From Thermoplasmata archaeon (GTDB lineage Archaea > Thermoplasmatota > Thermoplasmata > Lutacidiplasmatales > UBA184), in assembly GCA_021809545.1 (NCBI GenBank), contig JAKAYL010000009.1:1-51230 (forward strand): DNA of 51,230 bases, in the 5' to 3' direction. Below are positions 49,274-51,052 of this stretch, piece by piece. The position numbers and the translations under genes are program-made. The notes beneath the pieces were generated by a model. The model saw only the letters and a list, made by a program, of their open reading frames with translations. It was not told the DNA's origin and ran no database searches. Each line of letters opens with the position of its first letter. Positions within the stretch are counted from its first letter, which is position 1.

Positions 49274-50881
49274 TCAATCCTTCGGGGTCGGACCCTTTGT
49301 TCGGGGGTGTTCCCGCGCTTCCTCGAGGAGATAGCTGATCTCGGAAGACTCCAGCTCAAGCCGCTTGGAGAAGGCGGACTGGAGGTCCTGGAATGCCATC
49401 ATTTCGGAATCGTCCAAAGAACCGACGGCGCTGAAAAGCCTTTCCACGAACGGCAGCATTTCACTGGAGGCCCGGCGTCGCGACATGTGCACGTAGCTAC
49501 CGAGTTTGCGGACCAGGGAATCGCGCACCCAACGGCGGTCCCCTCCGCGTCCCCGGAAGAAGGCGGGGAAGTCAACGGTGGGGGCCCGGTAGTAGGGTCC
49601 CGGGGGTCGTCCGTGGAAGAGGGCCGTGGAAACCCCTCCGGTCATGAGCTCGCTCGCGTAGCTCCAAAGGACCCAGACCCTCCAACGGTTCGCCAAAGCA
49701 AGGTGGGCTTCTGCGCTCGCAAGCACCCGGAATCCCTCCGAAAGCCCATCGGCGTCCTCGGCGAAGTTGGGGATGTTCTCCTCGATCCAGGGAAGGATCT
49801 GGTCGGGAGGCACGTCGACCATCCGCATGACCTCGACGGAAGGCAGGAACCGGCCCCCCGAGAGGAACTTCCGGGTCGCCTCGTAGAGATTGCTCTCGAC
49901 CTCACGGACACCCAATACCTCCGCCGGGTCCACCCCAGGCGGGAGGCTGGAGAGCGCCTCCAGGTCGTTCAGGGCGGCCCTCACGTCCCCGTGGTCCCGA
50001 GAAACGATGGCGTCGATGAGCTCACGGCTGACCGTGAGACCCTCGGCACTGGCGACCTTGAGCAGGTGCCCACGAAGAGAGGTCGAATCTACCGAGAGGA
50101 ATTTGACCCTCAGGACCGCGTTTCTGGGAAAGTTCGCGGCCCGGAGCAGGGGATAGGCATCGTTGGCGGTCATGAGGAGGGGTTGCCGGGTCGTGTGCAC
50201 AATCCGGGCCAGCTCGTCCACGGCCCCTTCGTCCCCAAAGCTGACGGCAGCCTTCCGGGAACTCTGCCAGTCACCGATGTCCATTCGAGCCTCTTTGGGA
50301 TAGCGGGCCAACCCGGCGGCGGAGGGTTCCTTGGGGAGTTCATCGAAGGAATCGTACGCGGACTTTCCGGTGAGCTTCCAAGCGCGGTTCAGGTCTTCGA
50401 TCCGCTTGTACCGTCCGTGGAGGAATTCGCGAAAGGGGGTCACGGGGGCTTTCACACTGCGCGCCCCACCGCGGGAGGAGCCCAGGGGGAGTGCGTCGAC
50501 CTCGTCGATGAGCACCAGGCTCCTCTCCCCGAGGGTGGGAGAAAGGAAGCGGCCATCGTCTCCAAAGGAGCTCGTGATCGCGGCCCGTCCCGCCGTCTGG
50601 GCGAGCGCCCCCTCGTTCCGGGCGTCCGAGGCATTCATCTCAACGATGGACCAGCCCATCTCCCGGGCGAGCGCGTAAGCGGCTGAGGTCTTGCCCGTGC
50701 CGGTGGCGCCCTCGAGGATGGCCGCAACGGTCGCCGGGCGGGAACTCCCCTTTCCCCAGGACGTCCCAAAGGCTCGGAGCTTGGCCACAGCGTCCAGCTG
50801 CCCCACGACCCCATCGAGGGTGGAGGGCCGCCATCGCTCGGAGAGCGAGGAGCCTTTCGGAGCGGTAGGGGAACTGAACAT
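49274..50881 (-). CDS. rfcL: Replication factor C large subunit with internal insertion
   Basis: RFC-L is part of the clamp loader that opens PCNA onto primed DNA. The 535-residue protein opens with SLSERWRPSTLDGVVGQLDAV. It has Walker A EGATGTGKTSAA (57-68), the box IVEMNASDARN (79-89), Walker B SLVLIDEVDALP (121-132), sensor region QPLLMTANDAYPLLRA (233-248) and the AAA+ lid (DHGDVRAALNDLEALSSLP). Between SSRGG (135-139) and sensor 1 lies an insertion of about 75 residues (141-215), absent from ordinary RFC-L, that resembles a GH42 segment. The C-terminus lacks an obvious PIP box. A TATA-like AGCTAATACCC (50911-50921 minus) precedes the ATG. Confidence 0.9.
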   Translation of the reverse strand: MFSSPTAPKGSSLSERWRPSTLDGVVGQLDAVAKLRAFGTSWGKGSSRPATVAAILEGATGTGKTSAAYALAREMGWSIVEMNASDARNEGALAQTAGRAAITSSFGDDGRFLSPTLGERSLVLIDEVDALPLGSSRGGARSVKAPVTPFREFLHGRYKRIEDLNRAWKLTGKSAYDSFDELPKEPSAAGLARYPKEARMDIGDWQSSRKAAVSFGDEGAVDELARIVHTTRQPLLMTANDAYPLLRAANFPRNAVLRVKFLSVDSTSLRGHLLKVASAEGLTVSRELIDAIVSRDHGDVRAALNDLEALSSLPPGVDPAEVLGVREVESNLYEATRKFLSGGRFLPSVEVMRMVDVPPDQILPWIEENIPNFAEDADGLSEGFRVLASAEAHLALANRWRVWVLWSYASELMTGGVSTALFHGRPPGPYYRAPTVDFPAFFRGRGGDRRWVRDSLVRKLGSYVHMSRRRASSEMLPFVERLFSAVGSLDDSEMMAFQDLQSAFSKRLELESSEISYLLEEAREHPRTKGPTPKD

Positions 50882-50979: not shown

Positions 50980-51052
50980 AGCCGCCAGGGAGACTTGAAC
51001 TCTCGACCTGCTGATTACAAATCAGCCGCTCTGCCAACTGAGCTATGGCGGC
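50980..51052 (-). tRNA. tRNA-Thr(UGU)
   Basis: On the minus strand the gene runs from 51052 to 50980 (73 nt). The acceptor stem GCCGCCA pairs with TGGCGGC. The D-arm is GCTCAGTTGGCAGAGC. The anticodon stem GCTGA/TCAGC holds loop TTTGTAA with anticodon TGT. The T-arm includes GTTCAAGTC, and the discriminator is U73, as usual for archaeal tRNA-Thr. The 3' CCA is not encoded and there is no intron. A TATA-like CTTAAATC at 51083-51090 precedes it. It is the first gene upstream of rfcL. Confidence 0.95.

Follow-up and report, generated by a model that had tools for sequence, protein, structure and literature searches.

A glycosidase-type helical module inserted in the replication factor C large subunit of one archaeal family

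Clamp loaders, universal and conservative machines, have DNA-facing loops in which there seems to be little scope for change. We ask here what should be made of an archaeal clamp-loader subunit that carries, in such a loop, an extra segment resembling part of a carbohydrate-active enzyme. The gene lies in the window, that is, the whole stretch of 51,230 nucleotides that was analysed (Thermoplasmata archaeon, contig JAKAYL010000009.1, positions 1 to 51,230). If a conserved foreign module does sit at the DNA-facing loop, it amounts to a natural experiment on how much change the DNA chamber tolerates, and a sub-fragment of a glycosidase barrel would prove usable as an independent, transferable building block.

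The identity of the protein is clear. The open reading frame at 49274-50881 on the minus strand, with its start codon at 50881, translates into 535 amino acids plus a stop. It matches the NCBIfam model ‘replication factor C large subunit’ with E 5e-68, the match being broken into two pieces on either side of the insert, and a Foldseek search with its AlphaFold model ranks yeast Rfc1 chains first. The translation contains a Walker A motif GATGTGKT (residues 58-65, 50687-50710, minus strand), of which G58, G61, G63, K64 and T65 are invariant among 47 large subunits (RFC-L), and, as the alignment also indicates, a Walker B motif DEVDAL (residues 126-131, 50491-50506, minus strand; DEVD is 126-129), of which D126 and D129 are likewise invariant in that set. 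SSRGG follows at residues 135-139, and the sensor 1 region TANDAY at residues 238-243 (50153-50170, minus strand; TAND is 238-241). By its AAA+ core motifs, and by its best matches to RFC-L models and Rfc1 structures, the protein is an RFC large subunit. With archaeal RFC-L (NCBIfam PRK04195 series) and yeast Rfc1 it shares the AAA+ core, Walker A and B, sensor 1, lid, collar and C-terminal region; it differs from them in a module of about 75 residues, of glycoside hydrolase (GH) type, that separates Walker B from the DNA-facing helix, and in scoring 229.6 bits against an NCBIfam cut-off of 280. There is a practical side to this, in that RFC-L of this family fall below database cut-offs while the insert can attract a spurious ‘beta-galactosidase’ label.

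The genome of the window yields a single RFC-L match, and an RFC small-subunit-like match is found on a separate contig of the same genome (G000:C27). A search with PF08519, the RFC1 family of Pfam, gave no match there or in the control genomes, and is uninformative. Immediately upstream of the RFC-L gene, and on its strand, is a tRNA-Thr (TGT) gene at 50980-51052. At the other end of the gene (49274-49330), the RFC-L of the window's genus (L001-L004) stop early, without the C-terminal PIP-box-like QRTLF or QRRLGDF that occurs in nearly all complete RFC-L of the family (L005-L030) and in many outgroups.

Where, exactly, does the extra segment sit? The sequence-only reading had placed some 75 residues between the SSRGG of the Walker B region and sensor 1. 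A 75-residue extra segment is indeed present (residues 141-215, 50237-50461, minus strand; RSVKAPVTPFREFLHGRYKRIEDLNRAWKLTGKSAYDSFDELPKEPSAAGLARYPKEARMDIGDWQSSRKAAVSF), and in most other families of the class RFC-L has no insert, the stretch DEADNLFGRE-DRGG being contiguous in the alignment. The segment does not lie directly before sensor 1, however, but before an intervening helix. In the AlphaFold model, the Walker B strand (121-126) is followed by a linker (137-142), by helices at 150-158, 161-167, 189-193 and 196-214, by the DNA-facing helix (220-230), and only then by the sensor-1 strand (235-239). Because it is placed before a helix and not immediately before sensor 1, the insert is distinct from the pre-sensor-1 hairpins of AAA+ proteins, and that identity is ruled out.

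The insert is predicted to form a compact helical mini-domain. Its first helix, FREFLHGRY (residues 150-158, 50408-50434, minus strand), has a block mean pLDDT of 95, and its second, IEDLNRA (residues 161-167, 50381-50401, minus strand), which is followed by W168, has one of 97. A long third helix (residues 196-214, 50240-50296, minus strand) carries D201 and W205. As far as residue 210, the insert helices have block means of pLDDT 85-97 in the model of the full protein, whereas linker 137-142 is below 50; folded on its own, the insert has a mean pLDDT of 79.

The resemblance to GH42 beta-galactosidases had originally been judged by eye, and it is now backed by sequence profiles, by profile-profile comparison and by the predicted fold. 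A Pfam search with the insert alone returns only PF02449, Glyco_hydro_42 (E 2.3e-4, 21.1 bits against a cut-off of 21), the match covering residues 148-189 (50315-50440, minus strand; TPFREFLHGRYKRIEDLNRAWKLTGKSAYDSFDELPKEPSAA) and profile positions 152-193. The same family is matched by 21 of 45 related inserts at E <= 0.1, and a single other family appears once, weakly. When a profile of the 45 inserts is compared with 177,635 distinct PDB sequences, all 12 matches up to E 10 are GH42 beta-galactosidases or beta-agarases, led by 1KWG (E 9.6e-5). A smaller insert profile gives a best E of 5.2e-5, together with one weak match to an RNase P protein (E 1.5). The insert and GH42 have a motif order in common, FxxFL..RY..I..LN.AW, then Y.SF.E..P, then D..DW.

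These searches begin from the insert, and we also compared it with an independent set of GH segments. Nineteen such segments were gathered in two steps, first by the Pfam GH42 model and next by an HMM made from three Victivallales GH42 proteins, neither step using the insert profile; the Victivallales genome behind this set had been reached via an insert match, but the segments themselves were picked independently. In hhalign, the insert profile aligns with the GH-segment profile at a probability of 98.1% (E 1.3e-13, score 66.2) over 54 columns, which include the D..[WF] of the third helix. Over these columns, and at their conserved positions, the insert fits the pattern F..fL..rYg.i..Ln.aW / y.sf.ei / D..[rd][FW]. 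By comparison, the maximum over 100 column shuffles is a score of 17.9 and a probability of 8%, the reversed profile gives 1%, and segments from the rest of RFC-L give at most 0.6%, with one segment that partly overlaps the insert at 84%. The shuffled-column, reversed and other-segment controls rule out chance or composition as the source of the likeness.

The controls leave convergence to be considered, that is, the possibility that two unrelated helical hairpins have arrived at similar core residues. The strongly matching part is short, some 40-55 residues of a helical hairpin, its second half aligns more weakly, and helical hairpins recur in proteins. Against this, a score of 66 stands beside a maximum of 18 in shuffles, searches of the whole PDB with insert profiles return GH-type proteins almost exclusively, and identical core residues occur in identical order across three helices. 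We regard convergence as very improbable, and homology of the insert to a module of GH-A-type enzymes, with its family distribution as described below, as very probable. The insert is a genuine domain insertion.

The predicted fold points in the same direction. A Foldseek search of the insert model (a 77-residue query) against 350,542 PDB chains gives 68 matches up to E 10, and the best 50 of these 68 are all glycoside-hydrolase-type enzymes, aligned over 63-87 columns, and TM by insert length reaches 0.57. They are GH42 beta-galactosidases, GH86/GH50 agarases, an Ignavibacterium beta-1,2-glucosyltransferase, GH167, an entry named ‘GH42 exo-carrageenase’, and beta-amylase. No individual E-value is better than 0.085, a weakness expected for a query of only 77 residues, and the scoring uses sequence besides shape. 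It is the consistency of the matches to the predicted model, and not any single E-value, that constitutes the fold evidence.

The list of enzymes bears on the name of the module. In the GH42 beta-galactosidases (PF02449; the Thermus A4 enzyme 1KWG, residues 157-192 onward) it comprises three helices, FxxxL..RYGxI.aLN.aWG / y.sf.ei / D..rF, in the same order as in the insert. In three GH42 proteins (L171-L173) it follows the acid/base strand, strand 4 in GH42, as NEYG...C..C...FRxWL..RYGTIEALNxAWGT. The top structural overlap, a TM of 0.57 by insert length with an rmsd of 3.1 over 66 columns, is with the module of the GH86/GH50 beta-agarases (4BQ2-4BQ5, 6XJ9), which contains KYKTIAALNNAWGL and which, unlike the RFC-L insert, lies inside a glycosidase barrel. 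About 20 proteins of one Victivallales genome (G603, L150-L193) contain the motif, mostly GH-like open reading frames of 650-1280 residues. One of them, a carbohydrate ABC permease (L149/L150; BPD_transp_1 E 1.2e-13), carries the module, FRDFLRARYGSVEKLAAAWG..SFSEI..P, at residues 349-387 (PF02449, 24.2 bits, above the cut-off). There, as in RFC-L, it is inserted in a protein that is not a glycosidase; the permease differs in being a membrane transporter, in which the module is presumably extracytoplasmic. In the permease gene at L149:1948-3825 (Victivallales bacterium, CALXMJ010000007.1) the module lies within a large insert; near residue 150 there is a further motif, weaker and diverged. The permease copy means that the module can exist outside a glycosidase barrel, so that ‘GH42’ is a convenient label and not a definition. 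The original description of the insert as ‘GH42-like’ holds as to likeness and needs refining as to specificity: the module is recurrent in GH-A-type enzymes (GH42, GH86/GH50 agarases, weakly GH14) and is shared by the permease, and it is no hallmark of GH42.

The anatomy of the insert also excludes a glycosidase function. Only profile positions 152-194 of 376 are matched and the flanks are AAA+, so that a complete (beta/alpha)8 barrel is absent; the catalytic glutamates (acid/base and nucleophile) fall outside the matched stretch, and what precedes the insert is the Walker B loop. Unlike GH42 enzymes, it has no TIM barrel, no catalytic acid/base, no nucleophile and no preceding Cys metal cluster. 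Since the barrel and the catalytic residues are absent, the insert is not an enzyme.

We turn to how widely the insert is distributed, since it could have been a common element of RFC-L; alignment and genome searches confine it instead to one archaeal family (f1). It was found in 82 of the 95 genomes of this family that were searched, including all 33 genomes of the first search set with an RFC-L found, and every RFC-L of the family that was examined has it. Among 305 other genomes of the class there was no convincing insert, the three weak matches being fragments, of which two lie in frames shorter than 40 residues, and in a 390-genome sample of the phylum it was found in f1 only. In four genomes of the family (G004, G010, G020, G035) RFC-L was not found. 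These look like assembly gaps and not like losses of the insert, because no RFC-L was recovered from them and the only collar-like match in G004 lies near a contig end. A frame or assembly error as the source of the insert is rejected on the strength of 30 intact open frames in independent genomes. The insert is thus a trait of the family and not special to the window's genome. Its named carriers are ‘Thermoplasmata archaeon’ genomes and Candidatus Lutacidiplasma silvani, and the family appears to belong to the Lutacidiplasmatales, an order of soil archaea (PMC9287336).

Identities over the insert correlate with identities over the rest of the protein (Spearman 0.70, 406 pairs), and this co-divergence fits a single gain followed by vertical descent. 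As to a source, neither a second copy of the module nor a full GH42 enzyme that might have been the donor was found in the window's own genome, and our searches identified no donor; nor was a viral source found, no viral contig searched encoding the insert.

The same loop has received other material in related families. In another family of the order, RFC-L carries an unrelated, Lys-rich insert of 89 residues at the same position (L065), and two relatives in the sister families have a short acidic one (L064, L066), which makes the loop an insertion hot spot in the order. The Lys-rich insert was considered as a degraded copy of the module, and this was rejected by hmmsearch --max and hhalign. 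That the site tolerates such different insertions lends something to the idea that the module is a functionally neutral surface decoration. Yet the core is not free to vary: R157, Y158, L164, L170, P183 and D201 are invariant in the 45 inserts, W168 is present in 41 and W205 in 43, and most of the invariant residues are those common to GH modules. Moreover, dN in the insert is well below dS in every compared pair (for example, 0.07 versus 1.23), similar to the catalytic flanks, and the insert is kept in every RFC-L found in the family. Neutrality is, in our view, improbable.

What, then, might the module do? The residue that follows it offers a clue. D217-E218-G219 (50225-50233, minus strand), which correspond to the DRGG that opens the DNA-facing helix, align with D433-R434-G435 of yeast Rfc1, so that the insert is directly N-terminal to the equivalent of Arg434; cryo-EM places this arginine in the minor groove of DNA in the RFC chamber (PMC9359705, PMC9293004). 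We infer a single gain, and likewise the position of the module in the assembled loader and its function, as follows. A helical mini-domain of about 70 residues, homologous to the module after the GH-A acid/base strand, would have been gained once in the ancestor of one Lutacidiplasma-like family of Thermoplasmatota, placed in the RFC-L loop that leads from Walker B to the DNA-facing helix, and retained since. Added rigidly to the AAA+ domain at position A, it would lie next to the minor-groove probe and close to the A-to-A' gate by which DNA enters, and could there contact DNA or brace the gate or a neighbouring subunit, altering DNA binding or clamp release. Taken as a whole, this account is the best explanation we have, and we hold it to be somewhat probable; the non-catalytic role at DNA or gate, judged from sequence and considered by itself, we put forward only tentatively. 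The charge of the insert gives no special support for DNA binding, because its mean net charge (+3.0) equals that of GH modules (+2.9).

A different role would be that of a protein-docking module, recruiting polymerase, primase, PCNA or a lineage-specific factor without touching DNA. The insert has conserved positions that are RFC-specific and lie outside the shared core (AWGL, PP.F, GR.AW.RLP), and these could form a docking surface; in addition, the window's genus kept the insert while losing the PIP-box-like tail. But the point of attachment adjoins the residue that faces DNA in yeast RFC (PMC9359705, PMC9293004), and the linkers of the insert are short. Since a rigid module attached beside the Arg434 equivalent would be near DNA or the gate, we favour the brace at DNA or gate and place partner docking second, as a rather unlikely alternative.

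The insert directly follows Walker B, and this suggests yet another possibility: that its role is to tune the hydrolysis of ATP, whether in the A site or at the interface of A and B. It does begin only about 12 residues past the Walker B acids, and in RFC those acids lie at the interface between subunits. Nonetheless, no alteration is seen in Walker A, Walker B or sensor 1, and the low-confidence linker at 137-142 suggests that the module is mechanically uncoupled, which leaves such tuning with little probability. To return to the brace at DNA or gate, its most far-reaching form would have a whole archaeal family replicating its chromosomes with a clamp loader that uses a mini-domain derived from a carbohydrate enzyme as an essential DNA- or gate-contacting element at the minor-groove probe, in a lineage-specific clamp-loading step. 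We offer this as a speculation and think it somewhat doubtful.

In the open-access literature we found no link between clamp loaders and glycoside hydrolases or a module of this kind, most subscription journals lying outside that search. For the RFC-L with a GH-type insert we make a strong claim of homology and a weak one of function. Parallels among large subunits are Elg1, with its locking loops and plug, and Rfc1, with its BRCT domain, where lineage-specific additions to the large subunit likewise alter access to DNA. The plug of Elg1 belongs to the collar, and its loops LL1 and LL2 precede the AAA+ domain or serve as a linker (PMC10906927); unlike the insert, none of the Elg1 additions described in that paper lies between Walker B and the next helix.

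One further peculiarity concerns the window's genus itself. In the window and in its congeners L002-L004, the equivalent of Arg434 is a glutamate (DEG in place of DRGG), whereas other members of the family keep the arginine. The replacement may weaken the contact with DNA at this position.
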